From NCBI GenBank assembly GCA_944392235.1, contig CALXVZ010000003.1:1-64000 (forward strand): a stretch of DNA of 64,000 bases, given 5' to 3'. A program made the position numbers and the translations under genes. The notes beneath the pieces were generated by a model. That model was not told where the DNA came from and made no database searches. It was given only the letters and a program-made list of their open reading frames with translations. Position 1 is the first letter of the stretch, and every line of letters starts with the position of its first letter. Below, piece by piece: positions 2,475 through 55,097 of this stretch. The stretch is from an uncultured Alphaproteobacteria bacterium. Lineage in GTDB: Bacteria; Pseudomonadota; Alphaproteobacteria; RF32; CAG-239.

Positions 2475-2498
2475 TGCTCTTCTCCCCATATTAGATAT

Positions 2499-2527
2499 AG
2501 TATATCAAATTGTGCTGATAGTGTCAA
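2499..2527 (-). promoter_or_regulatory. Strong sigma-70-type promoter for the 1-2474 gene
   Basis: On the minus strand TTGACA (2527-2522) is followed by exactly 17 bases and TATACT (2504-2499). Transcription would begin near 2492, leaving a leader of under 20 bases before the ribosome binding site and GTG 2474. It is the best-matching promoter in the window. Confidence 0.75.
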
Positions 2528-2784
2528 TAAATTTAACGATACAGCTCTTGAGCTCCTTGGTGTTTTTGATATTTTGTTATTTCTTTTTGCGATTTTTATA
2601 TATCAGAAAAAATTATTTTTCTTTGTTGAAATTTAGTTAATTTATTATGAAAATCTTGAAATTAAGTAGTTTCTGATTTCTTGTTTAGTCAGGATATATT
2701 TAATTTAAATAGCTGTGTTCACAACTGTTCTGACTTTTCCTATCTATTAATAGTTGTTTCTGTTTTCCTCTAAATTTTATCTTT
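2528..2784. other. AT-rich intergenic spacer
   Basis: Together with the promoter just downstream, this separates two minus-strand genes by about 310 bases (2475-2784). Apart from that promoter I see no ORF with a convincing ribosome binding site, no RNA gene and no clear terminator hairpin. Confidence 0.5.
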
Positions 2785-4584
2785 CTATTTTATTTTTTTT
2801 AAATTCTGTAACTTCTTCAAAAATAGCATAGTTTTTTTGGGGGGATTTTTCTCTGAAGTAAATAAATTTGTATCTTTTGACGATGCTTTTTCATTCTCTT
2901 TTTGATGAATATTTTTGATTTTCAAAGCCGATATTTTTCTTATTTGTTGATTATTTATATTTTTAGAAGCTTCTGCAGGTCTTCTTTTTAATATTTCAAC
3001 TTTCTCATGTATCCAAAAGCTGTCTTTAGTAATTAATTTTTCGGTTTTGCTAAAATCTAAATTTTCCTTTTCCTTTGCCTCTGTAATTACTGAAATATTT
3101 GAAATATCTACTGTTTGGGGCATTATATTTCTACCCCAAAAGCGTATTTTATTATTAACTCTAGGAAACTTGATTTTTTCTATACTAGATAAATCCTGAT
3201 TAAACAATATAAAATCGTTACATTTTTCTATATCAAGAGATTTTACGTTTTGGGGAAGTTTAACATTACTTAAACATAGTCTATTACACTGTTTTGGTAA
3301 AATAAGATTATCACATTCACTTAAATCAATATTTTCTAGAAAAATATCTCCATTACATTTGCTTAAGTCTAAAACTCTATGTTTTAATCCGGAGATATTT
3401 TTTAATGTTAAATTTCCTTCAAATTCTACTTTATTAAATACGTTAGGTAGATTGATTGATGATAAATTGGCATTCTTTATATGCAAATCATCAGAAATAT
3501 TTTGCCGAAAAATAAAATGCTCTAAAATTTCTATATCTGCTTGAGTTTTATTGATGTAAATCTCGTTATTTTCTATTGTTTGTTGAGAATATGGAACTAC
3601 ACATTCCCTCCCCGCATTTATATCTTCTTTTAAATTATTTATGCGATTTATCATTATATTGTTTTTTTCATTTTGCGAATAAACTTCATGTAATTGTGCA
3701 AATCGCTCCCAATCATTACTAAAATATCCTTTTTTATCTGCTATTTGTATAACATCCTCTCCATATTGCAGATAAATGGCTTTTAATGGATTTTTGTGTG
3801 GAAAAATGGGGGTTTCATGTATTTCTTCTCCAGCCTCCATTTCTTTACGATGTTCAATACCATATTCTGAATATTTTTTATACTTTCCATCCGTTTCAAA
3901 TTCATATATAAAACCATATTTTTTTCCATCAATTGGCAAATATCCTACACCTGTGCTAAATCCTCCATCTGCGTATTTTGATGCTATCATAATATCTGGT
4001 GTTGCATAACATACATTTCTAGCACATCTTGAACCCGTTATTGCATAGGGTTGATTACCTAATGTTCCTCCTCTATATAAAGATGTTTTGTTATCTGCTT
4101 TTGCTTTTATATCAATCTTTGGGGTTTCTTTAACTAAATTTAGTTGACGATATATAAAATCTTTTATTTCTTGATTACCGCAAATAATATCTATTTGCCT
4201 ATCATCTTTGGGAGTGATACATCTAGTTAGATTTTCTGCATTCATTGGTAAAGCATACCCTCGTATAGGAATTCCTTTTGCTTTTAGTGCATTATAAATA
4301 TCTTTGACTACTAGCAAGCTGTCATCTGCGGACACATATGGACTACGAATCCCTGTGTCGTCAACAATAAAACATGTATCGTCTATAGCCTTATCACTAT
4401 AGTATGGAACAGCTTTCATCCCAGCTTGCTGCAGAGTATTCACGACATCCTCTACTTTAGTATTTGGATTTATTCCTATTGAAATAACAACAGGATCCTT
4501 CAAATTTTCAAAATGATTAGATATAATTTCCTGAAATTCTTTTGAATCAATTACATTTTTCATAATATTACTAACTGCAGCCAT
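2785..4584 (-). CDS. Uncharacterised protein: ART-like core plus leucine-rich-like repeats
   Basis: 599 aa, starting at ATG 4584 after AGAGAGG with an 8-base spacer. Residues 30-150 form an alpha/beta-looking N-domain. The core at 168-290 has L-Y-R-G-G (169-173), C-Y-A-T-P-D (192-197) followed by A-S-K-Y-A, a run of Glu near 248-254, and N-P-L-K-A (265-269). These positions match the neighbouring gene and resemble ADP-ribosyltransferase motifs, here with the first-strand Arg kept (inference). Residues 370-520 show irregular L-x-L-x-N/C repeats typical of bacterial leucine-rich regions, which often bind proteins. The last 60 residues are Lys-rich. There is no signal peptide or TM. The whole suggests a secreted effector or a polymorphic-toxin-like protein, but no database match could be made. 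Confidence 0.75.
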   Translation of the reverse strand: MAAVSNIMKNVIDSKEFQEIISNHFENLKDPVVISIGINPNTKVEDVVNTLQQAGMKAVPYYSDKAIDDTCFIVDDTGIRSPYVSADDSLLVVKDIYNALKAKGIPIRGYALPMNAENLTRCITPKDDRQIDIICGNQEIKDFIYRQLNLVKETPKIDIKAKADNKTSLYRGGTLGNQPYAITGSRCARNVCYATPDIMIASKYADGGFSTGVGYLPIDGKKYGFIYEFETDGKYKKYSEYGIEHRKEMEAGEEIHETPIFPHKNPLKAIYLQYGEDVIQIADKKGYFSNDWERFAQLHEVYSQNEKNNIMINRINNLKEDINAGRECVVPYSQQTIENNEIYINKTQADIEILEHFIFRQNISDDLHIKNANLSSINLPNVFNKVEFEGNLTLKNISGLKHRVLDLSKCNGDIFLENIDLSECDNLILPKQCNRLCLSNVKLPQNVKSLDIEKCNDFILFNQDLSSIEKIKFPRVNNKIRFWGRNIMPQTVDISNISVITEAKEKENLDFSKTEKLITKDSFWIHEKVEILKRRPAEASKNINNQQIRKISALKIKNIHQKENEKASSKDTNLFTSEKNPPKKTMLFLKKLQNLKKIK

Positions 4585-4764
4585 CTATGCGACCTCTCTA
4601 TCTCTTTTTATACAAACGTCTATATAGAATTATGCTGAATATTTAGTTAAACGCATTATGTTATGTATTTTAAAAGTATTATACAACTTTATGATTTTTT
4701 ATATTTGAAATTTAAAATAAATAAACCACCTCTTTGGGCGGCTTTCCTTCATCTTAAAAAAAAA

Positions 4765-4839: not shown

Positions 4840-5042
4840 ATCACTTAACTGAACAGCTTTATAACATACTTTTTTTTTATTGCAAGAAAAATTTTTTATT
4901 TTTTTTGATAAACATACTATCTGCTTGTTTTTACTAAGATGTTTTTTATTATTTAATGACTCTTCTTATTGTTATTTTTAATAAAATATATACTATTCCT
5001 GTATTACTCTTTTCGTAACATTAATATCTGGGAATAATTGAT

Positions 5043-5189
5043 ATGAAAAAGGTTGTGACAACTAAATCTAAGAATCTTCGTTTCGAGAAAGAATCTAAAG
5101 CTCTTAAAAAAAATCTTGAAAAAAGAAAACAACAAGAAGCAGAGTTAAAAAAACTTAAAGAACAAAATGCTTCTTCTGATGCTAAATAA
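5043..5189 (+). CDS. Small basic coiled-coil-like protein upstream of murA
   Basis: A 48-aa frame beginning MKKVVTTKSK and ending NASSDAK, about one third Lys or Arg. Residues 13-43 look like a single highly charged helix with K-x-L-x-K repeats. It sits 15 bases upstream of murA on the same strand, so the two are probably co-transcribed. The ribosome binding site is weak (GGGAATA). I do not recognise a family. Small Lys-rich proteins of this kind can be nucleic-acid binding, but nothing here shows that. The codon-like A/T pattern and close coupling to murA support a real gene. Confidence 0.55.
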   Translation: MKKVVTTKSKNLRFEKESKALKKNLEKRKQQEAELKKLKEQNASSDAK

Positions 5190-5204
5190 TTTAAGGATAT
5201 ACAG

Positions 5205-6500
5205 ATGGATAAGATTAAAATTATTGGAGGCAATCCGCTATTTGGTAAAATTTATATTAGTGGCGCAAAAAATGCTGCTCTTCCTCTTGTTTGCGCTTCT
5301 TTGTTAACTGATGAGGCTGTTACTCTAAAAAATGTACCTCAACTTTCTGATATATCTTTTCTGAATAAGTTATTACTTTTTTTGGGAATGAATATTGATG
5401 AAAAACATGAGAATCTTGATACTTATCCATCAATGACTTATACATATAGAGCAAATGCCATATCTAATCTTATTGCTCCATATGACTTTGTTAGAAAAAT
5501 GAGAGCCTCATACTATGTCCTTGGTCCTCTTCTTGCTCGTTTTAAACATGCTGAACTCTCCTTACCCGGCGGTTGTGCAATCGGTGCAAGGCCTATTGAT
5601 ATTCATCTTTCCTCGCTGGAGCAAATGGGTGCTTCTATTGAAATTAAAAACGGCTATGTTATTGCTGATGCTCCTCAAGGCCTGAAAGGTGCTCATATTA
5701 TTTTTAGTAAAGCCTCTGTTGGTGCTACATGTAACATCTTAATGGCAGCCACTCTTGCTGAAGGTGTTACTAAAATTGAAAATGCTGCAAAAGAACCTGA
5801 AATTGCTAATCTAATTGATTTACTAAATGCAATGGGCGCTAAAATTGAAGGACGTGATACCTCTGTTTTAACAGTCTATGGTGTAAACAAACTTCATGGA
5901 GCTCAACTATCTGTTATTCCCGATAGAATTGAGGCTGGTTCTTATGCAATAGCTGCAGCTATTACTCATGGTAAACTTGAATTAATTAATGCAAATCCAG
6001 ATTTTCTTCAGCAACCTTTGCGTGTTCTTGAAAAAATGGGTGTCGAGATTCAAGAATTTGAGAACTCTATTATTGTTAATGCTGTTGGAAAAAATATTAT
6101 TGGTGATGATATTTATACAGATTATTATCCTGGTTTTCCCACAGATCTGCAGGCTCAGTTTATGGCTCTTATGACTGTGGCAGATGGAGCTTCTCTTGTT
6201 ACCGAAAGTATTTGGGAAAATCGATTTATGCATGTTCCGGAATTGTGCAGAATGGGAGCTAATATTAATATTCACGGGCATGCTTCAGCTATTGTTCGGG
6301 GAGTTAAAAAGCTTTCAGGCGCTCCTGTGATGGCTACAGATTTAAGAGCTTCTTTTGCGTTAATCCTTGCAGGTCTTGCTGCAGAGGGTGAAACAATCGT
6401 CAACAGAGTTTATCATTTAGACAGAGGTTATGAATGTCTTGAAGAAAAACTTCGAGCTGTGGGTGCAAATATCGAACGTATTAAAGAAAGTGATTATTGA
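5205..6500 (+). CDS. murA: UDP-N-acetylglucosamine 1-carboxyvinyltransferase MurA
   Basis: 431 aa, the normal family length. MurA transfers enolpyruvyl from PEP to UDP-GlcNAc, the first committed cytoplasmic step of peptidoglycan synthesis. Visible landmarks are Lys22-Asn23 in the A-K-N-A-A motif and the catalytic loop with Cys124 in P-G-G-C-A-I-G-A-R-P. Cys rather than Asp at this position predicts fosfomycin sensitivity (family knowledge). The final D-L-R-A-S-F-A-L-I-L-A-G-L-A-A motif is present. It begins 15 bases after the small basic protein, and its last 7 bases overlap the convergent glycosyltransferase gene. Confidence 0.97.
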   Translation: MDKIKIIGGNPLFGKIYISGAKNAALPLVCASLLTDEAVTLKNVPQLSDISFLNKLLLFLGMNIDEKHENLDTYPSMTYTYRANAISNLIAPYDFVRKMRASYYVLGPLLARFKHAELSLPGGCAIGARPIDIHLSSLEQMGASIEIKNGYVIADAPQGLKGAHIIFSKASVGATCNILMAATLAEGVTKIENAAKEPEIANLIDLLNAMGAKIEGRDTSVLTVYGVNKLHGAQLSVIPDRIEAGSYAIAAAITHGKLELINANPDFLQQPLRVLEKMGVEIQEFENSIIVNAVGKNIIGDDIYTDYYPGFPTDLQAQFMALMTVADGASLVTESIWENRFMHVPELCRMGANINIHGHASAIVRGVKKLSGAPVMATDLRASFALILAGLAAEGETIVNRVYHLDRGYECLEEKLRAVGANIERIKESDY

Positions 6501-20572: not shown

Positions 20573-22018
20573 ATGAGCAGTATTCCTAATATTGTTGATG
20601 AAAGTGGTGATAAATATAAATTCGGCTTTGTTACCGATATTGATGCTGAAGTTGCTCCAAAAGGGCTTAATGATGATATTATTAAATTAATTTCTCAAAA
20701 AAAAGATGAGCCCGATTGGTTGTTACAGAATCGTCTTAAAGCATATCATTATTGGTTGACGCTCTACGAACCATCTTGGGCAAAGTTATCTTATGATAAA
20801 ATTGATTATCAGAATTTATATTACTATTCTGCTCCCAAACAATCTGTTAAACCTAAAAGTCTTGATGAAATTGATCCTAAAATTTTGGAAACATATAATA
20901 AATTAGGTATCCCTCTAAAAGAACAAGAAGTGCTTGCAGGTGTTGTTGCTGTTGATGCTGTATTTGATAGCGTTTCTGTTGCAACTACTTATAAAGCTCA
21001 ACTCAAAAAACAAGGTATTATATTTTGCTCTATCTCTGAGGCTATTAAAGAATATCCTGATTTAGTTAAAAAATATTTGGGTTCTGTTGTTCCTTATACG
21101 GATAATTTTTTTGCAGCACTCAATTCTGCCGTTTTTACTGATGGTTCTTTTGTATATATACCTAAAGGTGTTAAATGTCCAATGGAACTTTCTACCTATT
21201 TTAGAATTAATGCAAAAAACACTGGTCAGTTTGAAAGAACTCTCATTATTGCTGATGAAGATAGTTATGTTTCTTATTTGGAAGGTTGCACAGCTCCTCA
21301 ACGTGACGAAAATCAACTTCATGCCGCAATTGTTGAAATTTTTGTTCATAAAAACGCAGAAGTTAAATACTCTACTGTTCAAAACTGGTATCCTGGTGAT
21401 AAAGATGGTAAGGGTGGCGTTTATAACTTTGTTACTAAAAGAGCTCTTTGCAATGGTGATAATTCTAAAGTTTCTTGGACGCAAGTTGAAACAGGTTCTG
21501 CTATTACTTGGAAATATCCTTCATGTGTCCTTAAAGGTGATAATTCAAAAGGAGAATTCTATTCTGTCGCTATTACAAATAATAAACAACAGGCAGATAC
21601 CGGAACTAAAATGATACATTTAGGCAAAAATACAAGTTCCAGAATTATTTCGAAAGGTATTTCCGCCGGGTTTTCTAATCAAACATATCGAGGTTTGGTC
21701 AAAGTTAGTAAAAATGCTGATAATGCTAGAAATTATTCTCAATGTGATAGTCTTCTTATTGGGAAAACTTGTGGGTCTCATACAGTTCCTTATATCGAAA
21801 ATAGTAATAAGTCTGCAATACTTGAGCATGAAGCTACTACTTCCAAAATCAGTGAAGAACAACTCTTTTATTGTAAGCAGAGAGGGCTTTCTGAAGAAGA
21901 TGCCGTTAGCTTAATTGTAAATGGTTTTTGTAAAGAAGTTATGCAAAAACTTCCTATGGAATTTGCTATTGAAGCAGCCAAACTTATTGATATTTCTCTT
22001 GAAGGTAGTGTGGGCTAA
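20573..22018 (+). CDS. sufB: Fe-S cluster assembly scaffold SufB
   Basis: 481 aa. SufB forms the beta-helix scaffold of the SufBC2D complex on which Fe-S clusters are built. Family segments include the Y-S-A-P-K-Q region near residue 85, [14 protein letters not shown] (about 195-208), Y-L-E-G-C-T-A-P (237-244) and the C-terminal [15 protein letters not shown]. It is isolated: sufC and sufD do not follow, and sufS, sufT and sufE lie 12 kb away. A terminator follows within 30 bases. Confidence 0.96.
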
Positions 22019-34236: not shown

Positions 34237-34269
34237 TTTTAATTTTATACTGTTTTAGTGTTGAAAAAA

Positions 34270-34304
34270 TTAGAGATAAGTTCTATCTTATCTCTAATTT
34301 TTTT
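34270..34304 (+). terminator. Rho-independent terminator between fabZ and sufS
   Basis: TTAGAGATAAG (34270-34280) pairs with CTTATCTCTAA (34287-34297), followed by seven T. It lies inside the artificially long frame that begins at GTG 34258, so it also argues that translation of SufS starts downstream at 34315. Confidence 0.9.
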
Positions 34305-34314
34305 GAGGTGTAAA

Positions 34315-35538
34315 ATGTTTGATGCTCATATTGTAAAAAAAGATTTTCCAATTCTGAATAGATTAATTGATGGGAAAAAAAATATATATATGGATACTGC
34401 TGCATCTGCGCAGAAGCCTTTATCCTTAATCAAAACTCTTGAACGAGCTTATTTAGAAGAATATGCTAATGTTCATCGTGGAAGCTATTGGCTTTCTGAG
34501 ACGGCAACAGAAAATTATGAACATGCTAGAAATGTTGCTGCCAAATTTATCAATGCACCTACTGCTGATTCTATCATCTTTACAAGAAGTGCTACTGAGG
34601 GTATTAATCTTGTTGCTGCTACTTATGGATGTGCTAACTTAACTTCTGGTGATGAAATTGTTCTATCTAGAGCGGAACATCATGCAAATTTTGTAACTTG
34701 GCAACAAACCGCTCTTAAGACTGGTGCTAAAATTGTTTATTTCGATTTAGATAAAGATGGAAACTTTGTTTGGGAAAACTTTGAAAAGTCTTTGTCTGGA
34801 AGAACTAAAATTGTTGCTGTAACAGCAATGTCCAATGTCTTAGGAACAATCTTTCCTGTTGAGCGGATTTGTGCGGCTGCTCATAATTTTGGGGCTAAAG
34901 TTCTAATCGACGCTTGTCAGTTTGCTGTTCATAAAAAAATAGATGTTCAGAAATTTGATTGTGATTTTTTGGCATTCTCTGGTCATAAAGTATATGGTCC
35001 TACCGGCATTGGTGTTCTGTATGGAAAATATGATCTCCTTAAAGAAATGCCTCCCTATCAATATGGTGGAGATATGATTGAAAATGTTAGTTATGAAAAA
35101 ACATCTTTCGCTCTTCCTCCTGCTCGTTTTGAAGCAGGGACTCCTGCTATTGTTCAAGCTATTGGACTTGCTTCCTCTCTTGAGTATCTTATGAAATTTG
35201 ATTTTAACGAAATTGAAAAGTATGAAGCTGAATTAATTTCTTATACCTCAAAACTGTTGTTAGATATTCCTAATCTAAAAATTTTAGGTACAGCCCATGA
35301 AAAAGGTGGCGTTTTTTCTTTTGCTATTGATGGAATCCATCCTCAGGATTTAGCTTTTATCCTTTCAAAAGAAGGAGTAGCTATTAGAACTGGGCATTTT
35401 TGCGCACAACCTCTTGTTAATGCTCTGGGGTATACCTCTCTTGCTCGTGCATCTTTAGGTATATATACAACCAAAGAAGATGTTGATGATTTTGTTTCCG
35501 CCTTAGTAAAAGCTAAATTTTTTTTTGAAAATGACTAA
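34315..35538 (+). CDS. sufS: Cysteine desulfurase SufS
   Basis: 407 aa from ATG 34315, preceded by TTGAGGTG; the longer frame from 34258 runs through a terminator. PLP Lys is K225 in S-G-H-K-V-Y-G-P-T, and the persulfide Cys is C363 in R-T-G-H-F-C-A-Q-P, as in group II desulfurases. It takes sulfur from cysteine and passes it to SufE, two genes downstream. The two-base spacing to sufT suggests coupling. sufB is 12 kb away and sufC/sufD are not in the window. Confidence 0.96.
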   Translation: MFDAHIVKKDFPILNRLIDGKKNIYMDTAASAQKPLSLIKTLERAYLEEYANVHRGSYWLSETATENYEHARNVAAKFINAPTADSIIFTRSATEGINLVAATYGCANLTSGDEIVLSRAEHHANFVTWQQTALKTGAKIVYFDLDKDGNFVWENFEKSLSGRTKIVAVTAMSNVLGTIFPVERICAAAHNFGAKVLIDACQFAVHKKIDVQKFDCDFLAFSGHKVYGPTGIGVLYGKYDLLKEMPPYQYGGDMIENVSYEKTSFALPPARFEAGTPAIVQAIGLASSLEYLMKFDFNEIEKYEAELISYTSKLLLDIPNLKILGTAHEKGGVFSFAIDGIHPQDLAFILSKEGVAIRTGHFCAQPLVNALGYTSLARASLGIYTTKEDVDDFVSALVKAKFFFEND

Positions 35539-35540
35539 TA

Positions 35541-35969
35541 ATGACTGATAATGAAAACTTAAATGAACTTGATGAAAACGAAGCTCAACTTTTAGCTGCA
35601 ATGAGTGTTGATGAATTGCCTGTATATAAAGCATATGCCGGCACAGAACTCTCCTCTACGTCTCAAAAAGCTAAAATGTTTGATATTGTTGAAGCTATAA
35701 AAAAAGTTTGCGATCCGGAAATTCCTATTAATGTTTATGATTTAGGATTAATCTATAAAATCGATCAAAATGACAATGGCGACTTACATATTGATATGTC
35801 TTTAACTGCACCAGGATGTCCTGTGGCAGGAGTTTTACCTCAGCAAGTTGCAGATGCAGCAGCTGGTGTCGGAGGTGTTGGAAGAGTTGAAGTTGAAGTT
35901 GTTTGGGAACCTGCTTGGTCTTTGGAACGATTAAGTGATGAAGCTCGTATGATGCTAGAAATGATTTAA
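35541..35969 (+). CDS. sufT: SufT-like Fe-S maturation protein (MIP18/DUF59 family)
   Basis: 142 aa. The DUF59 core begins near residue 48: I-K-K-V-C-D-P-E-I-P-I-N-V-Y-D-L-G-L-I-Y, then L-T-A-P-G-C-P-V-A with the conserved Cys. SufT-type proteins assist Fe-S maturation under high demand. The N-terminal 45 residues are acidic and unrelated to the core. It is flanked by sufS and sufE, which supports the call. Confidence 0.9.
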   Translation: MTDNENLNELDENEAQLLAAMSVDELPVYKAYAGTELSSTSQKAKMFDIVEAIKKVCDPEIPINVYDLGLIYKIDQNDNGDLHIDMSLTAPGCPVAGVLPQQVADAAAGVGGVGRVEVEVVWEPAWSLERLSDEARMMLEMI

Positions 35970-35985: not shown

Positions 35986-36393
35986 ATGTCTATCGAATCG
36001 TTAATTGATGATTTTTCTTTTTTGGATGATTGGGAAGATCGCTATAAATATCTTATTGAACTAGGCTCACAATTACCGCATTTTAATGATGCTCAAAAAG
36101 TAGATCAATGGAAAATATCTGGCTGTCAATCTCAAGTGTGGATTATTCCTCATTTTAATCAGCATACGCTTTCTTTTCAAGGTGACAGCGATGCTATTAT
36201 TGTTCGTGGTATTATTGCCGTTGTTTTAACCATATTTAATGATAAATCTGCACAAGAGATTTTAGATATTGATGTTGAAGAAATTTTTGATAAAATGGGC
36301 TTAAAAGAACATATTACCCCAAATCGTCGAAGTGGTATGCTTTCGATGGTAGAGAAAATTAAATTTTATGCACGAGAGGCTTTAGTAAAATAG
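35986..36393 (+). CDS. sufE: Sulfur acceptor protein SufE
   Basis: 135 aa. The sulfur-accepting Cys is C47 in K-I-S-G-C-Q-S-Q-V-W, and R-x-L-I-E-L-G-type residues precede it. SufE relieves SufS of its persulfide and carries sulfur to SufB. It is followed two bases later by the sucC-like gene, so a metabolic-looking pair is transcribed with the SUF genes. Confidence 0.94.
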   Translation: MSIESLIDDFSFLDDWEDRYKYLIELGSQLPHFNDAQKVDQWKISGCQSQVWIIPHFNQHTLSFQGDSDAIIVRGIIAVVLTIFNDKSAQEILDIDVEEIFDKMGLKEHITPNRRSGMLSMVEKIKFYAREALVK

Positions 36394-36395
36394 GA

Positions 36396-37604
36396 ATGAA
36401 TATTCACGAGTATCAAGCTAAGAAAATTTTTAAACAGTTTGGCATTAACGTTCCTAAGGGACTTATTGCCTATACTCCTCTTGAGGCGAAAGAGGTTGCT
36501 GAAAAAGTTTCTGAGTTTGGGCCTTGGGTTGTAAAAGCTCAAATACAATCAAGTTCTCGTGATGCTGGGCGCTTTTCTGATAAAAGAGCTGGTAAAAAAG
36601 GTGGTATTAGGTTATCTAAAAGTCTTGATGAGGTATTCGATAACGCTGATGATATGTTAGAGAATCTTTTAGTTACAAATCAAACTGGTGCTAAAGGTAG
36701 ACTTGTTAGTCGGGTTTATGTTGAAGAATTTATTAAAACTACTAAAAAATTTTATCTAAGTTTGGTTATTGATTGGACTGTGGCTTCTACTGTTTTATTG
36801 GTTGCCCCTATTTCTGATAAAGATGATGAAAATATTATTCAGATTGCAAGTGATAATCCTGAGAGAATCCTGAAAGTTAATCTAGGTCTTCAAAAAAAAA
36901 TTAATTCCGAACAATTGCAGCAAATTATCTCTTTCATGAATATGCCTGTTGAGGTATCTATCTTAAAATCTTTTCTTAATAAAATGCTCAATCTTTTCTA
37001 TACTTGTGATGTTACTCTTTTGGAAATTAATCCTATAGGTATTGCTAAAAATGGTAATATATGGGCCTTAGATGCTAAAATTGTTTTTGATGAAAATGCT
37101 CTTTATAGACATCCAGAAATTCCCCCTCTATTTGATGATTCTGAAATAGAAGAAAGAGAACTAATCGCATCTAAGTTTGGTTTTCAATATAGAGAACTTG
37201 AAAGTGGTATGGGTATTATCGTTAACGGTGATGGACTTGCTCTTAGCACTATTAATCAAGCAAAACAGATTGGTTTAGATACCGCATGTTTTCTTAATCT
37301 AAAAGGCGGAGTTGATCGCGATAAGATTGCGGCAGGAATAAAACTCATTATGACGAATCCAGGTGTTGATGGTATTTTTATTAATATCTTAGGTGGTTTT
37401 TCTCGTTGTGATCTTATTGCTGATGGAATTATTACCGTTGCAAATGATTTAGGGTTAAATATTCCTTTAGTTGCTCGTTTTGAGGGAACTAATAAAGATG
37501 AAGCAACTGCTATTTTACAAAAATCCGGTCTGCCGTTAGCTATTGCCTCAAATACAGAAAAGGGCTTACTACTTTTGAAAAATGCTATTGCGGAGGATAT
37601 TTAA
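36396..37604 (+). CDS. Divergent succinyl-CoA ligase beta-subunit-like protein
   Basis: 402 aa, normal SucC length. The ATP-grasp start M-N-I-H-E-Y-Q-A-K and the Mg-binding L-E-I-N-P-I (near 210) are kept. Other sites are changed: the glycine-rich H-A-G-G-R-G-K nucleotide loop becomes S-S-S-R-D-A-G-R-F with an insertion, the usual D-V-G-G-G becomes N-L-K-G-G, and the G-G-I-V-R-C-D motif is G-G-F-S-R-C-D. The true SucC makes ATP or GTP from succinyl-CoA with SucD. Given these changes and those in the next gene, ordinary ligase activity is doubtful. Its last base is the first base of the alpha-like gene. Confidence 0.85.
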   Translation: MNIHEYQAKKIFKQFGINVPKGLIAYTPLEAKEVAEKVSEFGPWVVKAQIQSSSRDAGRFSDKRAGKKGGIRLSKSLDEVFDNADDMLENLLVTNQTGAKGRLVSRVYVEEFIKTTKKFYLSLVIDWTVASTVLLVAPISDKDDENIIQIASDNPERILKVNLGLQKKINSEQLQQIISFMNMPVEVSILKSFLNKMLNLFYTCDVTLLEINPIGIAKNGNIWALDAKIVFDENALYRHPEIPPLFDDSEIEERELIASKFGFQYRELESGMGIIVNGDGLALSTINQAKQIGLDTACFLNLKGGVDRDKIAAGIKLIMTNPGVDGIFINILGGFSRCDLIADGIITVANDLGLNIPLVARFEGTNKDEATAILQKSGLPLAIASNTEKGLLLLKNAIAEDI

Positions 37605-38473
37605 TGTCAATTCTTGTTGATAAAAACACCAAAATTCTAGTGCAAGGTATTACTGGCGCCCAAGCTTCATTTCATGTTCAAAGAGCTCTTAAATATGGAT
37701 CTAAAATTGTTGCAGGTGTTGCTCCTAATAAAAATGATAAAACTTATTTAGGTCTTCCTTTGTTTGGTTCCGTTAATGAAGCTGCTGAAAAAACAGGGGC
37801 TACTGCATCTATCGTTTTTGTTCCAGCTAAATATGCTAAATCCGCTATCATTGAAGCTATTCATGCTCATTTAAGTCTTGTTGTGGTTATAACTTCTGGA
37901 ATTCCTGTCAGAGATATGATGGAAATTCGTGAAGAACTTTCTAAATCTTCTACAATTCTTGTTGGACCTAATACGCCTGGGATTATTACCCCTCAAGAAG
38001 CTTATATGGGAATCTTTCCTAGTGATTTTCATCAAAAAGGAAAAATTGGTATTATTTCTCGTTCTTCCACTCTTACATATGAAGTTGTTCTTGAAATTAA
38101 TCAGCTTGGATTTGGCGAATCTACTATTGTAGGTCTTGGTGATGATCTTATTCTTGGCTCAAATTTTATAGAGATGATTAAACTATTCAATAGTGATACT
38201 GATACAGATGCTGTTATTCTCATTGGTGGTATTGGCGGAAATTATGAACTTGAAATTGCTGATTACTATTCTGCTATAGACTTTAAAAAGCCTATCTTTG
38301 CCCTTATTCAGGATGATTTTTCTCTTCTTTCTCAAAATGTAGGACTTGCTTCTGATATTATGTGTAGAGGAATCTCTTCATCTGAAGATAAACGTAAAAT
38401 ATTAGAAAAAGCTGGGATTTGCGTTGTAGATACTATTTCTTCACTTAAAGAAAAATTGGCAGAATTATGCTAA
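37604..38473 (+). CDS. Succinyl-CoA ligase alpha-like protein lacking the catalytic histidine
   Basis: 289 aa, normal SucD length and fold. The CoA-binding N-domain (I-L-V-D-K-N-T-K) and S-R-S-S-T-L-T-Y-E are present. In SucD the phosphorylated His lies in R-M-G-H-A-G-A; here the aligned segment is N-V-G-L-A-S-D, with Leu248 in its place. The supporting Glu of I-G-E-I-G-G is Gly209 (I-G-G-I-G-G), and N-C-P-G is N-T-P-G. So two catalytic residues known from the E. coli enzyme are gone while the fold is kept. A CoA- or acyl-CoA-binding role, or different chemistry, is possible. It overlaps comF by 7 bases. Confidence 0.85.
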   Translation: MSILVDKNTKILVQGITGAQASFHVQRALKYGSKIVAGVAPNKNDKTYLGLPLFGSVNEAAEKTGATASIVFVPAKYAKSAIIEAIHAHLSLVVVITSGIPVRDMMEIREELSKSSTILVGPNTPGIITPQEAYMGIFPSDFHQKGKIGIISRSSTLTYEVVLEINQLGFGESTIVGLGDDLILGSNFIEMIKLFNSDTDTDAVILIGGIGGNYELEIADYYSAIDFKKPIFALIQDDFSLLSQNVGLASDIMCRGISSSEDKRKILEKAGICVVDTISSLKEKLAELC

Positions 38474-39186
38474 AATGGTTAAAAATATTTTTTAATTTAA
38501 TTCTTCCTCCTCGTTGTCCTGTTTGTGGAAAGGTTGTTGCCAACAGTGATGCTTTATGCCCGAAATGTTTTGCAAATATTACTTTTATTAGTTTCCCTTA
38601 TTGTAAAAAATGCGGAAAACCTTTAGAACTATTTATCTCTGAAGATGAATTATATTGCGAAGATTGTCTTATCAAGAAATCTCCTTTTCGTTTTTGTCGC
38701 TCTGCTGTTGTGTATGATGATTTTTCAAAAAAAATTATTCTTGATTTTAAATTTTTTGATCATCTTGAAAATAAAAAATTACTGGCAAAATGGTTATTTA
38801 TGGCTGGAAAAGATATTTTTAACGAAGGAGTTGATTATATTATTCCTGTCCCTTTACACTACTCGAGACTCTTTAAACGCAAGTATAATCAATCAGCAGT
38901 CTTATCTGCTACTCTTTCAAAAATGTGTTCAATTCCAGTATTGTATACTACTTTAAAAAAAGTCAAAAAGACTTTACCTCAAGTACATTGTTCCGGTAAA
39001 CAACGTTTAAAAAATATCAAGGGTGCTTTCCAAGTTATTAATCCAGATTCTATTAAAGATAAACGAATCGTTCTTATTGATGATGTTTATACTACAGGCT
39101 CTACATTACGCGAATGTGCTAAAGTTTTAATTAGAGCTGGCGCTAAATCTGTTGACACACTTACCGTTGCTCGTGTTTGTGATTAG
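38467..39186 (+). CDS. comF: ComF family phosphoribosyltransferase-like protein
   Basis: 239 aa. The N-terminus has two Cys pairs (C-P-V-C and C-P-K-C) and a second group (C-K-K-C, C-E-D-C), a zinc ribbon. The C-terminus is a PRTase fold with the PRPP loop V-L-I-D-D-V-Y-T-T-G-S-T. ComF proteins act in DNA uptake for transformation, or in related DNA handling where competence is absent. It is last in the sufS to comF run. Confidence 0.92.
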   Translation: MLKWLKIFFNLILPPRCPVCGKVVANSDALCPKCFANITFISFPYCKKCGKPLELFISEDELYCEDCLIKKSPFRFCRSAVVYDDFSKKIILDFKFFDHLENKKLLAKWLFMAGKDIFNEGVDYIIPVPLHYSRLFKRKYNQSAVLSATLSKMCSIPVLYTTLKKVKKTLPQVHCSGKQRLKNIKGAFQVINPDSIKDKRIVLIDDVYTTGSTLRECAKVLIRAGAKSVDTLTVARVCD

Positions 39187-41081: not shown

Positions 41082-41513
41082 ATGAATCATGAATATGAAT
41101 ATATTTCAACGTTGAATCCTGATGAAAGAAAACTTTTTGTTGAAAGTTTTTGTTGTATGGTTTGCTCTGATAAAAAAGTTTCAAAAGAGGAAATTGATTT
41201 TTTAAAAAGTATCGGTAAAATGTATGATATTCCTGAAGCAGATATCGTATATATTATGAAAAACTTAAATAAAGATAGTATCTTAAATAGAATTCAAGCA
41301 ATTACTGAAAGAAGAAAAGCTTTACAATTAATTAAAGAATTGTGCTATCTTGCTAATTCTGATAGTGGATTAGATGAAGATGAAATTGATTTTATTATTG
41401 ATATTGCTGAAAAGCTTAATGTTGAAAATGATAAAATTAAACAAATCAATAAATGGGTTTTAGATAAATTGGTATTACTGAAAACTGGTGATATTATTTT
41501 AGAAAATGAATAA
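41082..41513 (+). CDS. TerB-like helical protein
   Basis: 143 aa, all-helical, acidic. The repeated pattern of a helix pair with C-C-M-V-C-S-D-K-K-V-S-K-E-E and later L-A-N-S-D-S-G-L-D-E-D-E resembles the TerB/DjlA-N fold, where such Asp-rich turns may bind metal. The function of TerB-type proteins is poorly known (tellurite resistance, membrane-linked chaperone modules). No ter genes are near. Confidence in the family is moderate, and in the gene itself high. Confidence 0.7.
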   Translation: MNHEYEYISTLNPDERKLFVESFCCMVCSDKKVSKEEIDFLKSIGKMYDIPEADIVYIMKNLNKDSILNRIQAITERRKALQLIKELCYLANSDSGLDEDEIDFIIDIAEKLNVENDKIKQINKWVLDKLVLLKTGDIILENE

Positions 41514-41541
41514 GATCTTTTAGCTCTTCATTATTTTTCCT

Positions 41542-41569
41542 TTGATTTTGCCTATTTTTTTGGTATACT
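41542..41569 (+). promoter_or_regulatory. Extended -10 promoter for the 41597 gene
   Basis: TTGATT (41542-41547), 16 bases, and TATACT (41564-41569) preceded by TGG, an extended -10. The ATG follows 28 bases later with GGAG upstream. Confidence 0.55.
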
Positions 41570-41596
41570 AGCTATGTTAGTGATGGAGCATAGCTG

Positions 41597-42478
41597 ATGT
41601 CTTTCGAGTGGTTTGATAAAGAATTATCTAGAGTTATTAATAGGGCAATTGCTAATTGCTCTAATTTTGGTGTTGTATCTCATGATACAGACCTTCTTCT
41701 TTTGAAAAATAAAGTAGCACATCTTCACACTTCTGCTTTTTCTGATTTATCTAATTATTATTACTCTATTACAAAGGCTTCTTGTTTTTGTGATAGACTT
41801 GAGGAGTATGCTCATTCTTTGGATGTTGATGTAAAAGAAAATATTATTTTAACTGAAGATAATTATAGGGAAATTTTAGGTGGAATTAATTTTTTTCGTT
41901 CTTTGATACATCCCGATAATATTCCTATCTCTAAGACTATTGAGCATAATGCTAAAAGACATTTACCCGAATTTAAAAATATATTACTCCTCGAAGAATA
42001 TAATCAGCAAGCTCTTCGAATTCATGATATGAAACGTGGGTATACTCGGCTTAAACGCAAAAATCAACAGCCTTCAAAAGATTATGAAAGAAGTGCTTCT
42101 TCTTTCTTTGAAGATGTTTTGAACGATGATAATTTAAAAGAAATAAAACCGTGTCATGAAAAGCTTATGTTGTATATAAATTGTTTAAAAATTGTGGATT
42201 GTCTTCCCTCTGACAAATATGGGAGATTATCTAAATTTCAGTTGAAGAAAAAGTTTAATTTAGCTATTAAAGTTACAGCAAATATATTAGAAAATACTTT
42301 ACCTGCTCAATCTTCCTTATATCATGATTTATCTCTTAAAGCTGCTTATGAAGAAAATAAATATCATAATGCAATTGTAAAATTAAAACAATATACTAAC
42401 TCTCAACAGAAGACTCCTAAATTACGTTCTATTGATATTCGAAATAAAAAGGCTTTTGATGAATGGTATTATAAATAA
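41597..42478 (+). CDS. Hypothetical helical protein (293 aa)
   Basis: 293 aa, no signal peptide or TM. It begins MSFEWFDKELSRVINRAIAN and is predicted mostly helical and basic towards the C-terminus (ending D-E-W-Y-Y-K). There is a short H-D-T-D-L motif near residue 29. It has its own promoter and terminator, so it is a single-gene unit between the TerB-like gene and glycogen phosphorylase. I do not recognise a family; an intracellular regulatory or host-directed role cannot be told apart. Confidence 0.7.
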   Translation: MSFEWFDKELSRVINRAIANCSNFGVVSHDTDLLLLKNKVAHLHTSAFSDLSNYYYSITKASCFCDRLEEYAHSLDVDVKENIILTEDNYREILGGINFFRSLIHPDNIPISKTIEHNAKRHLPEFKNILLLEEYNQQALRIHDMKRGYTRLKRKNQQPSKDYERSASSFFEDVLNDDNLKEIKPCHEKLMLYINCLKIVDCLPSDKYGRLSKFQLKKKFNLAIKVTANILENTLPAQSSLYHDLSLKAAYEENKYHNAIVKLKQYTNSQQKTPKLRSIDIRNKKAFDEWYYK

Positions 42479-48689: not shown

Positions 48690-51589
<2,900 letters not shown>

Positions 51590-53780
51590 AATCTATACCT
51601 AATTTAGATAAGATATCCTCGTTTTCATCCGTTCTTTGAGCTACAATCCAATCTGGAACCCAGGGTGAATGAGGTAATTTAGACATAGCTAACATTTTCT
51701 TATCCAAATAGAAACGTGGAGCATCTGCCATAATTGGTGTATCAATTGCACCTTGCATCAATACTACTTGTTTAAGCATTGGCAAGCTTAATAAATCATT
51801 TGCACTAATTGCTGAAACACCTTGTAATTGGTAACTTACATTTTTTGCAAATGGATTATATTCCTTGGCAAGACTTCCTTCATTTCTACTGTAAGATGTT
51901 GTTTGAACGGTCTTGTTACCAATCATCTTTGAGAAACGTTGAGCTGTCTGCTCATTGTTTTGTGATAGAATAATTTTGCATGCAGTTGTTGATATCACTG
52001 TTTCCAAGTCATCTTTACCATATTTACCGGAAATTTGGCCTAAGTCTTGACCAATGAGCAAATATGATACTTTTTGACCACGTCCCACCGCTGGTCCATC
52101 AATTACCGCTTTTAATTTTGGCATTTGTGGAAACTCGTCGAGCACAAACAATGCTGGGAATGGGCCCATTTTTCCATCTGTAGGATTTACTGAATTCGGC
52201 TTATTTGAAATTAAATATGAACTGATTAAATCTACAAATGTCGCACTAATTGGGTTTAATGCTTGGGCGTCTGTTTGGTTAACTGACAGATATACAGAAA
52301 TTGGTTTCCACTCTCCTGTTACAGGATCTTTCATTCCTCGCAAATCCTTAAACTGGATGTCTGAGAAACTTGTTCTTGCAACCACCGCAGAGTTCTTAAA
52401 AATACCAATACCTGTTAAACCTGTTGAAAGAACGGACCCTCTTTCTTTATCCGGCATCGCACTTAATGCACTCAATTCAGTTACACAACGACGTGAGTAG
52501 CCATAATTATTTGCTTCTTCAACAGCGGCATCTAACAAATCTCGCATCGGATCTGCCATTGCAGCCATTTGATCTCCTTCTTCAAGACGACGCTTAATTT
52601 CATTCGCTTGCTCAATTTGTGAAGATGTAATCCATTCCAAAATCATTGCCATACATGGTTCATGATTTACCCACTTCTCCGGGAGTAAGTTCCATGTTCC
52701 AATTGGCAAATAATTTTCTATTGTTAAATTGCCACTTTGCAAATCCTGAATTGCTCTTGCAGCATTTGCTCGTAATCCGCCTATGCTCATATCATCATAA
52801 TATTGCATGAGCTCTGCTTTATCCTCAGCGGTCATTGAACCTTCATATATCTTTTGTATAAAGCGTTCATTGGCTAATGCTCTCTCACACTTTGATGAAA
52901 TAAAGTGAATAAAACCACAGAGTGCGCTACGACCTGTTTTAGACCAGTGTGGATCTGCTCCGCCTTTTGGATCTTCTACTAAAGTATTACACATAGAATC
53001 GACATACAAGTCTCTATCAGGTCCTGGTTTAGGTAGAGCTCCTGGCGATAAAGGGTTCCAGCTTGGATAATACTCTCCTGTTGCTGGATTATCTTCTTTA
53101 CCCCAGTTAATAACAAATACTGGACCGACTTTGTTTCTTGCTCCTGTTGTTTGATAGCACAATTCCGGTTTTGGGTCATTCACAATTATGCTTAATCCTT
53201 CAGAATTAAAAATTGTCGGTATCACAACTCCCGCTGTTTTACCTGTTCCCGGAGGTGCACAGCACAATGTTGATAATGTCTCTTTTAATTTCAACATCCT
53301 ACCTTGAAACTTACCAACAACCATACAAAAACCATCAAACCCTAATAATGGCATATTTTCAATATCTCGTAACGTAGCTATATGGGCCGAACCATGAATA
53401 TTTGATTGGAATTTATATGGGCATTTAACACCACCTACAATCAAAATTGTTGGAAAAGATATAAATGGTAATATCGGCGGCCATAAGCTAATTTTAAATT
53501 CTCCACTATATTGGTATATTTTCCTGAACCATCTCATATACCAATCCCAGAGAAAACCAAAATCCATAAATGATTTCTTTAAAAATAGCCCTGCGATATC
53601 CATGCTCTTTTTAGATATTCCATTTTGCATTAAAAATGCTAATATAGGCGCTAGATACATTAAGACTATCGTGACGGCTACGGAAATTATGAATGTTGTC
53701 GTCATCCATCTTACCGCATTGTCATATTCTTCCCACTCTTTTCCTCTTTCTTTTGCCATTTTTCCCTCTGTGTCTCGATG

Positions 53781-55097
53781 TTATGCCATACTACGAATTA
53801 GTTTTTTTAACTTTTCTAAAGTGTTTTTATCAACCTTTTCTTCACAATTGTCTATTGATTTAGAAAATAACCGTATTTCTTTTGGACTTCCTCTATTTAT
53901 ACGTGTTACATTTATATTCATATTATTCCATATTTCAAACATATCTTCTGCATTTATTATATTACCTGATTGTATTATTAAATATGAAACAATTTCAAAA
54001 TTCATATCTCCAACTGCTAATTTTGTCTTTAATATATCTCTAGCTATATCTAATTTTCTCACAGGAGATATTCTATGACTACTTTCTGAAAACCATAATG
54101 GCTCCTCATCATTAAATTTTTCTTCATCTGCTAACCAATCCCCTATTTCCTTATCTACCAAGCACAGATATAATTGTTTTTTTGATACCGCAATATAATC
54201 AATTGTTGTATTTTTAATTATTGCCGAAGATATTACATCATATCCTTTTTGATTTAATATATCTAATACTGGTGTATGTGATTCTTTATTCGGAGTTCCT
54301 TGACTCAACTCTTGTTGCTTGTTCTTGTTTTGATTGTCTTTTTTGTTATTTTGGCTTATATCTTTATCTTGATATTTAGAAGGTGGTGTAGATTTTTGTT
54401 CGTTTTTTTCTTCCGGTTTTATAATTTCTGCTTCAACAACCTCTGGTTTATCCGTCATTAACGCAGATGGTATCTGTTCTTCTTGTTCTGGCTTTTTATC
54501 TTTCTTTTCAAAATCAAAATCTAAATCAAAATCGTCGTCATCAAAATTAAATAAAGCATGACTTAATGGGGCTTCTTGCTCTTTTTTAGCTGGCGAATAT
54601 GATGTTGTTGGATGGGTGCTCATTGTCGTCAAATTACTGTTTCGATTTGACTGAAGCAGCGTTGCCGATGGTAATGGAGGACGTTTTACTGGTGCTTTCT
54701 TTATTATCGGTGTCTTTTTTACAGGTGCTACTTCTTCGCTTATAGATTTTTTCTTAATAACAACTGGTGCTTGAGTTTTTAGTTTTATTTTTCTATAAGC
54801 ATATATAGGACTCATCACTATTCGCTTAACTAAGCGTTCCCACTTTAATAAACATAACCCTACCCATCCTGTTAGCCATAATGGAATTGAACTTACAATG
54901 ACTATAAAAAAACCTATCTCTGAATTGCTAATTGGGGCTCCGCTGTTCCACTTATATTTTAGCAAACGCCAATGTTCTGATAATAAAAGATCAAAATGCC
55001 AGTTTATAAGCAATAAAACTCGAATGCCATCTATGAAGATTATACTCCATAAATATCCTACTATTAATGTTTTTAATATTATTGTTAATGGCTTCAA
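53781..55097 (-). CDS. Two-TM protein with Pro/Gln-rich linker and possible nuclease-fold C-terminus
   Basis: 438 aa. Two TMs (about 8-32 and 62-88) enclose a short loop W-H-F-D-L-L-L-S-E-H-W-R. This part aligns by eye with the gene at 55152. A low-complexity cytoplasmic linker (120-270; Pro, Lys, then Asp/Glu and Gln/Asn) follows. Residues 275-438 form a compact domain: G-Y-D-V-I-S-S-A then I-D-Y-I-A-V and L-Y-L-C-L-V-D-K-E, reminiscent of restriction-endonuclease-like folds, though a full catalytic set is not clear. It ends 22 bases before the VirD4-like gene. Confidence 0.75.
   Translation of the reverse strand: MKPLTIILKTLIVGYLWSIIFIDGIRVLLLINWHFDLLLSEHWRLLKYKWNSGAPISNSEIGFFIVIVSSIPLWLTGWVGLCLLKWERLVKRIVMSPIYAYRKIKLKTQAPVVIKKKSISEEVAPVKKTPIIKKAPVKRPPLPSATLLQSNRNSNLTTMSTHPTTSYSPAKKEQEAPLSHALFNFDDDDFDLDFDFEKKDKKPEQEEQIPSALMTDKPEVVEAEIIKPEEKNEQKSTPPSKYQDKDISQNNKKDNQNKNKQQELSQGTPNKESHTPVLDILNQKGYDVISSAIIKNTTIDYIAVSKKQLYLCLVDKEIGDWLADEEKFNDEEPLWFSESSHRISPVRKLDIARDILKTKLAVGDMNFEIVSYLIIQSGNIINAEDMFEIWNNMNINVTRINRGSPKEIRLFSKSIDNCEEKVDKNTLEKLKKLIRSMA

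Follow-up and report, generated by a model that had tools for sequence, protein, structure and literature searches.

Why should homologues of both subunits of succinyl-CoA synthetase (SCS), a central enzyme of the tricarboxylic acid (TCA) cycle, stand directly behind sufE, a gene of the SUF system of iron-sulfur (Fe-S) cluster assembly, and lack the defining catalytic histidine? The question is raised by a locus in the first 64,000 nucleotides (forward strand; hereafter the window) of contig CALXVZ010000003.1, GenBank assembly GCA_944392235.1, from an uncultured alphaproteobacterium of what we take to be, in GTDB names, the order RF32 and family CAG-239. The best explanation as a whole, at a probability of roughly 0.4, is that a former SCS has been repurposed as a coenzyme A (CoA)- or nucleotide-binding partner of SUF. 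Its strongest evidence is the joint loss of the phospho-histidine and its partner glutamate, a set of new residues around the phosphate cradle and a linkage to sufE that extends across the order. The two genes are:

36396..37604, + strand: beta-like subunit (SucC homologue), 402 amino acids, ATP-grasp and CoA-ligase domains
37604..38473, + strand: alpha-like subunit (SucD homologue), 289 amino acids, CoA-binding and CoA-ligase domains

Both open reading frames (ORFs) are open and have an ATG start; as the original prediction had described, they are full length, the beta-like gene begins 2 bases past the end of sufE (36393), and the two genes overlap by one base. Pfam matches above cut-off are ATP-grasp_2 and Ligase_CoA for the beta-like protein, and CoA_binding and Ligase_CoA for the alpha-like protein; the NCBIfam cut-offs for SCS (TIGR01016 / TIGR01019) are narrowly missed (beta 342.6 bits, cut-off 370; alpha 331.7 bits, cut-off 336). 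The alpha-like protein matches an E. coli SucD chain at an E-value of 5e-79, and the beta-like protein the beta chain of 6mel at 1.4e-68. Single-chain AlphaFold models reach a mean predicted local distance difference test score (pLDDT) of 89.1 and a predicted template modelling score (pTM) of 0.70 for beta, and 86.4 and 0.85 for alpha; in the alpha model, pLDDT falls below 50 only at residues 239-252, the stretch of the former phospho-His loop. Sequence and predicted secondary structure point to the SCS fold, and the pair should still fold and very likely still assemble into an SCS-like alpha/beta complex.

Catalytic residues and the phosphate cradle

Residue equivalences follow E. coli SucD, as translated from NC_000913, to which the alpha-like protein was aligned. 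The order is represented by 114 alpha rows, i.e., the window and 113 loci from 112 relatives (33 + 80) covering all 17 genera, and the canonical set by 22 rows, 21 from other Alphaproteobacteria and one from E. coli. A profile of the clade was also searched against a 190-genome sample of the class; the 27 best matches outside the order were read together with 20 further outgroup rows and, as G040 is shared by the canonical rows and the profile matches, these make 47 distinct alphaproteobacterial outgroup rows. The two key positions of the alpha-like protein are:

38345..38347, + strand: alpha Leu248 codon, at the place of the SCS phospho-histidine
38228..38230, + strand: alpha Gly209 codon, at the place of SCS Glu208-alpha (mature numbering)

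In the SCS cycle, the phospho-His is stabilised by Glu208-alpha and Glu197-beta (as described in the available part of PMC10342173), and of these three residues the order retains only Glu197-beta. The place of the phospho-His is taken by Tyr in 95 rows, Leu in 15, Ile in three and Phe in one, and by His in none, whereas all 22 canonical rows have His. Tyr is found in all 95 rows outside the window's genus, and Leu, Ile or Phe in the 19 rows within it. The partner Glu is likewise missing from every order row (0/114 vs 22/22 canonical rows), while His and Glu are both present in the 47 outgroup rows and in E. coli. The original prediction had read Leu248 as the phospho-His place, Gly209 as that of the partner Glu, and NTPG (Thr124 for Cys) as the counterpart of NCPG, all of which the alignment bears out; it restores an active-site His in none of the 114 rows. 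A merely misaligned phospho-His was rejected, since the full-length alignments and the 114 rows agree. Taken alone, NTPG is mild evidence and was rejected as a strong argument: the top phmmer match, 2nu8, is a deposited E. coli chain that has Thr at this position, and so does one His-bearing outgroup row. Sharing of the His loss by other orders was rejected as well for the outgroups read: His, Glu, NCPG, SxSGT, GGDP and NGAG are intact in each of the 27 top-scoring matches from outside the order in the 190-genome sample. According to a title cited in the literature, Glu208-alpha is reportedly crucial for phosphorylation of the SCS histidine. A different His lies four residues before the phospho-His place in 64 of the 114 order rows (as in FGHKMGYAGD), and the GxTGxQ CoA-binding motif is kept in all 113 rows with a letter there.

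The phospho-His loop of the superfamily has been proposed to swing by ~30 Å between the ATP site and the CoA site (available part of PMC11494057). In the 4-hydroxybutyryl-CoA synthetase structure 8wzu, treated in the same part of that source, a bound sulfate touches G163, A164, G310 and G311 at two helix tips; by motif, these contacts map to SucD Gly155-Thr156 and SucC Ala266-Gly267 (numbering with the initial Met). The corresponding positions in the window, and the beta glycine loop, are:

38066..38068, + strand: alpha Ser155 in SRSSTLTYE, phosphate-cradle helix tip via the 8wzu mapping (canonical Gly)
38141..38143, + strand: alpha Asp180 in LGDD (canonical IGGD), near the cradle
37230..37232, + strand: beta Asp279 in NGDG (canonical NGAG, E. 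coli Ala266), second phosphate-cradle helix tip
37302..37304, + strand: beta Lys303 in KGG (canonical GGG, E. coli Gly290), near the cradle
36534..36605, + strand: beta ATP-grasp glycine loop with an insertion of ~10 residues

Ser occupies alpha position 155 in 113/114 order rows and Asp position 180 in 114/114, vs Gly in 22/22 canonical rows at both. For beta, whose canonical set (20 rows and E. coli) includes some rows cut short by the fetched stretch, the place of E. coli Ala266 holds Asp in 89 and Glu in 10 of 111 order rows (Ala in 20/20 canonical rows), and that of Gly290 holds Lys in 112 and Arg in one of 113 (Gly in 17 and Ala in two of 19 canonical rows). Asp288 is replaced by Asn and Thr294 by Asp (E. 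coli numbering), each in 113/113 order rows. Because the phospho-His and its partner Glu are lost and the cradle carries fixed acidic, Lys and Ser residues, the SCS cycle (from ATP via phospho-His and activated succinate to CoA) should no longer run in the pair, and the sequences, read with the established mechanism of SCS, make it very likely that it has ceased to be an SCS.

The nucleotide side of the beta-like protein is partly preserved. In ATP-grasp proteins, individual residues of a Lys/Glu/Asn/Asp set serve the nucleotide and the metal; the order keeps Lys46 (110/110), Glu99 (111/111), Asp213 (112/112) and Asn199 (108/112), and also the phospho-His-stabilising Glu197 (112/112). The second Gly of GGRG is lost in a clade-specific manner, with Ala or Ser in nearly all rows, and the changes at beta His50 and Glu107 given below are likewise specific to the clade. 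The original prediction had also pointed to an altered glycine loop in beta. The insertion is real, although the alignment is uncertain within the loop, but as a mark of inactivity it was rejected: seven outgroup pairs whose alpha has the His carry a comparable insertion, so that the insertion alone is no sign of inactivity.

Linkage, constraint and metabolic setting

The genes around the pair, and a further suf gene in the window, are:

34258..35538, + strand: sufS (TIGR01979, 531 bits, cut-off 475), listed with a GTG start; an ATG ~19 codons inside may be the true start
35541..35969, + strand: sufT-like gene (FeS_assembly_P / SUF_assoc; the SUF_assoc score lies below its cut-off)
35986..36393, + strand: sufE (PF02657, E 4.8e-45), directly upstream of beta
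38467..39186, + strand: comF-like gene (double zinc ribbon and phosphoribosyltransferase), overlapping the end of alpha
20573..22018, + strand: SufBD-family protein, probably sufB (PF01458, E 7.2e-82), ~14 kb upstream in the same genome

The order sufE-beta-alpha was found in 109 of the 113 loci, the other four being cut by contig ends; a SUF linkage not conserved in relatives, which would have refuted the original prediction, was thus not observed. The gap between sufE and beta ranges from -38 to +28 bases in 107 of these 109 loci (the two outliers measure 841 and 848 bases), and a one-base overlap joins beta to alpha in 94 of 112. Around the sufE-beta-alpha-comF core, sufS, sufT, lpxD and fabZ vary, some fetched stretches being too short to include them. 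Among the copies checked, 109/109 sufE and 56/56 full-length sufS retain the Cys motif. No suf gene was found within 5.8-13.9 kb of the His-bearing sucCD in nine outgroup loci (L066-L072, L274 and L305), nor in the 4.3 kb stretch of a tenth (L306). Five genomes of the window's genus were searched for SufBD-family genes: in the window genome (G000) and in G005, G008 and G018 the two genes stand far from each other or on different contigs, the second gene of G000 lying at C22:4509-5192, and in the fifth, G010 (100% complete), only one was found; in many other genera they adjoin.

The alpha gene is present in 148 of 154 genomes of the order (107 of 109 among those of good quality), including 35 genomes with a match outside the loci read; its occurrence is order-wide, not the scattered single-genome pattern that would have refuted the original prediction. 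Named entries among the relatives (best 80 of 405) are, for example, Azospirillum sp. CAG:239 and gut-derived uncultured Alphaproteobacteria of deer, sheep and water buffalo. Among the six genomes without alpha, G033 has sufE followed by a beta cut at the contig end, and in G170 sufE itself is cut, so that a true gene loss in these two is unsupported; in the other four (one of them 93% complete) sufE was not found either, and a missing assembly stretch is the likely cause. A single alpha match per genome is the rule (147/148). The exception, G118 (L078 and L079), has two sufE-beta-alpha-comF sets and is probably a mixed bin, because one of its alphas shares 99.7% identity with the alpha of G159, a genome of another genus. 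In both trees (49 rows, with 26 clade relatives and the window; and 64 rows, leaving out two outgroup rows, one duplicate and the very divergent L268) a single branch, supported at 100/100, separates the clade of the order from all other rows, hence one origin suffices; L063 and L065 stand on long branches in the second tree. As a side observation, record JAISVX010000002.1 (L232), titled Lactobacillaceae and probably mislabelled, carries an alpha gene of the order's type.

Selection was measured as the ratio of nonsynonymous to synonymous substitution rates (dN/dS) in 46 pairs whose dS lay between 0.1 and 1.5 in alpha, beta, sufE and comF (17 in the window's genus, 29 outside); the pairs are statistically non-independent, and within the window's genus dS approaches saturation. 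Outside the genus, the medians for alpha (0.031) and beta (0.030) are both below that for sufE (0.050). Inside it, they amount to 0.162 for alpha, 0.093 for beta, 0.114 for sufE, 0.078 for sufS and 0.196 for comF. The pair is under purifying constraint in both sets, with alpha looser in the window's genus.

Metabolic profiles were searched in 27 genomes of the order from 15 genera. A PF00549 search returned no ligase-family gene besides the pair in any of the 27; the separate canonical sucCD that the original prediction had envisaged for related genomes did not turn up, and a second sucCD elsewhere was rejected, given also the single alpha in 147/148 genomes. The window genome (1.29 Mb, 77% complete) likewise has no other Ligase_CoA gene. 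Neither citrate synthase (13/14 controls matched) nor the E1 component of 2-oxoglutarate dehydrogenase (OGDH; 6/14 controls) was found in the 27 genomes. DapD had no match over the cut-off of 375 in the 27 genomes (weak matches of 18-31 bits in five; controls 2/14), and 5-aminolevulinate synthase (ALAS) none over 339 (controls 1/14); since few controls reach these cut-offs, the lack of DapD and ALAS counts for less than that of citrate synthase and OGDH. SufBD-type genes are present in 27/27 genomes. The usual TCA-cycle makers of succinyl-CoA are gone, and the SUF parts checked look functional. Another alphaproteobacterial order of reduced gut lineages, Rs-D84, has been reported to be without a TCA cycle (available part of PMC12306168). 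In L062 (G030), genes like dapB, asd, dapA and that of aspartate kinase, recognised by eye, adjoin the unit at 1277-4746, and another diaminopimelate branch is possible there in view of the lack of a DapD match over cut-off.

Elsewhere in the window, a TerB-domain protein (PF05099) lies beside a 293-amino-acid protein with no Pfam match (41082-42478), a type IV secretion coupling protein (TraD/TraG-like) beside a 438-amino-acid protein with no Pfam match (51540-55097; possibly a conjugative or secretion locus), and a 599-amino-acid protein with no Pfam match at 2785-4584.

Known relatives and competing explanations

The pair resembles SCS in its two-gene order with a one-base overlap, as in E. 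coli, and in its full-length homology, CoA motif, ATP-grasp core and beta Glu197. It differs from SCS in the lost phospho-His and Glu208-alpha, in the altered cradle and adjacent loops, in scores below the NCBIfam cut-offs, in its position behind sufE and in residing in genomes without citrate synthase or OGDH. Pat-type acetyltransferases offer a parallel, as they contain an SCS-superfamily domain without the catalytic His that is thought to sense acetyl-CoA (available part of PMC8556138); the Pat domain is, however, fused to GNAT, whereas here separate SucC- and SucD-like subunits stand next to sufE and a Pfam scan of the pair showed no GNAT domain. AllF (FdrA) is another protein annotated with PF00549 that serves chemistry other than that of SCS: AllF(FdrA)GH is an oxamic transcarbamylase (PMC11326118) and FdrA showed no detectable SCS activity (PMC8550087), both according to the parts available. 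Unlike AllF, the alpha-like protein scores only 29.1 bits on the FdrA model PRK06091 (cut-off 433). The comparison with related CoA-ligase families that the original prediction had proposed gave no assignment, as the malate-CoA ligase beta model PRK14046 (297 bits, cut-off 604) and the ADP-forming acetyl-CoA synthetase model TIGR02717 (66 bits, cut-off 567) were missed as well. With the SUF accessory genes sufE and sufT the pair shares co-location, direction and almost absent spacing. To our knowledge, no SCS-like subunit figures among SUF components, and no publication on this pair or on a sucCD-suf link was found in the open-access literature.

Several observations weigh against the interpretation of the pair as a binding partner of SUF. 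comF follows alpha in 112 of 113 loci (the exception is L063 from G031) and is thus linked as tightly as sufE, so that the partner could be ComF or neither. In 17 loci, sufE is the only suf gene in the fetched stretch, some of these stretches being short. In the outgroup genome G202 (L305), an intact His-bearing sucCD with a loop insertion (682-2829) is followed ~2.2 kb downstream on the same strand by comF (5000-5764), and part of the neighbourhood may therefore predate the His loss. The beta-like gene is split into two frames, with an alpha ORF following, in L045 (G013) and L101 (G123), which fits the two long sufE-beta gaps; the split could be either an assembly error or real. In the window's genus, alpha evolves faster than sufE (0.162 vs 0.114), and the CoA loop PGKGG is partly altered, its first Gly being mostly Asn and its last Glu or Asp. 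Beta His50 is replaced by Gln in 93 of 110 order rows (His kept in 14), and beta Glu107 is Glu in only one of 111; the loss of the latter and the mostly lost His50 render nucleotide binding uncertain. A 311-bit ALAS match, the only one among the 27 genomes (G030:C2:532556-533677), leaves some room for a need for succinyl-CoA. Finally, the fixed charged residues of the pocket would be equally compatible with a new enzyme and with a binding module.

Among the competing explanations, slow decay, with the genes as SCS relics not yet lost, would fit the absence of citrate synthase and OGDH, the split beta in G013 and G123 and the faster evolution in the window's genus; it is nevertheless already largely refuted and extremely improbable, as the genes are intact over the order at ~50% identity, clade-specific residues are fixed at 90-100%, dN/dS is low and no genome has been demonstrated to have lost the pair. 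Because of this intactness, the constraint and the fixed new residues, the pair is highly probably repurposed rather than abandoned, in line with the original prediction that decay was unlikely. A residual acyl-CoA ligase, in which the Tyr at the His place or the upstream His of FGHKMGYAGD would take the phosphate, is very improbable. The constancy of that Tyr outside the window's genus (95/95 rows), the upstream His (64/114) and the retained beta Glu197 and Asp213 would suit it, but the Tyr is absent from 19/19 rows of the genus, the upstream His is not general, the Glu that stabilises phospho-His (available part of PMC10342173) is lost in all rows, the cradle contains acids, and none of the enzymes tested that make or use succinyl-CoA gave a match over its cut-off.

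Two further explanations concern what the repurposed pair does. As an operon passenger, it would have a role of its own (e.g., with ComF or in fermentation), its position behind sufE reflecting an old and stable operon. The constant comF (112/113 loci) and the G202 outgroup, where sufE was not found in the 9.6 kb contig, speak for such a history, and G202 possibly shows what the ancestral neighbourhood looked like; comF may have been the earlier neighbour of the pair, and the sufE link may have arisen along with the His loss, although the outgroups are few. Against it stands the tight sufE junction in 107/109 loci, kept while sufS, sufT, lpxD and fabZ vary around it, and a passenger is considered improbable. 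The main rival is a new enzyme, in which the pocket rebuilt at the CoA thiol (alpha Thr124, Ser155 and Asp180; beta Asp/Glu266, Asn288, Lys290 and Asp294, E. coli numbering) would act on a CoA thioester, or on some other small molecule, by a different chemistry without phosphohistidine. Radical pocket substitutions are fixed over 17 genera (alpha Gly180Asp in 114/114; beta Asp288Asn and Thr294Asp in 113/113 and Gly290Lys in 112/113), a pattern that selection for new chemistry fits better than passive loss does, and the AllF precedent, with PF00549 and without SCS activity (available parts of PMC11326118 and PMC8550087), shows that members of the superfamily can take up very different chemistry. 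On the other hand, the genomic context suggests no substrate, no third subunit like AllG or AllH was noticed adjoining the pair (no model search for these was made), and the Tyr at the phospho-His position is missing from the window's genus. A new enzyme is accordingly considered a serious but rather unlikely outcome. The kept CoA site and partial nucleotide site suggest a binding or sensing role, and between a ligand-sensing partner and a new enzyme the former is given an even chance.

A possible role in sulfur delivery

The operon-like arrangement suggests SUF as the process that the repurposed pair serves. A role tied to SUF, for which the linkage is the sole basis, has somewhat less than an even chance. 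According to the proposed scenario, an SCS would have been repurposed in the ancestor of this gut alphaproteobacterial order, after or during the loss of the TCA cycle. The product would most likely be a module binding CoA or acyl-CoA and a nucleotide, made together with SufE from one operon, that might tune or scaffold sulfur delivery to SUF by the acyl-CoA or energy state; the inactive acyl-CoA-synthetase domain of the Pat-type acetyltransferases would serve as its model. Tentatively, the pair could constitute a previously undescribed SUF component, i.e., a phosphohistidine-free, SCS-derived complex that reads the levels of CoA, acyl-CoA or nucleotides, or catalyses a new reaction at the CoA thiol, and in this way controls or supports sulfur transfer by SufS-SufE throughout this order of gut bacteria.

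The pair represents a natural case of a central TCA-cycle enzyme that is without its defining catalytic residue and yet kept, with a rebuilt pocket, across an order of gut bacteria. Its annotation as succinate-CoA ligase would place a doubtful TCA-cycle step in metabolic models of these bacteria. We know of no precedent for a connection between CoA metabolism and Fe-S assembly; if the link to SUF is functional, the pair would join CoA metabolism to the assembly of Fe-S clusters.

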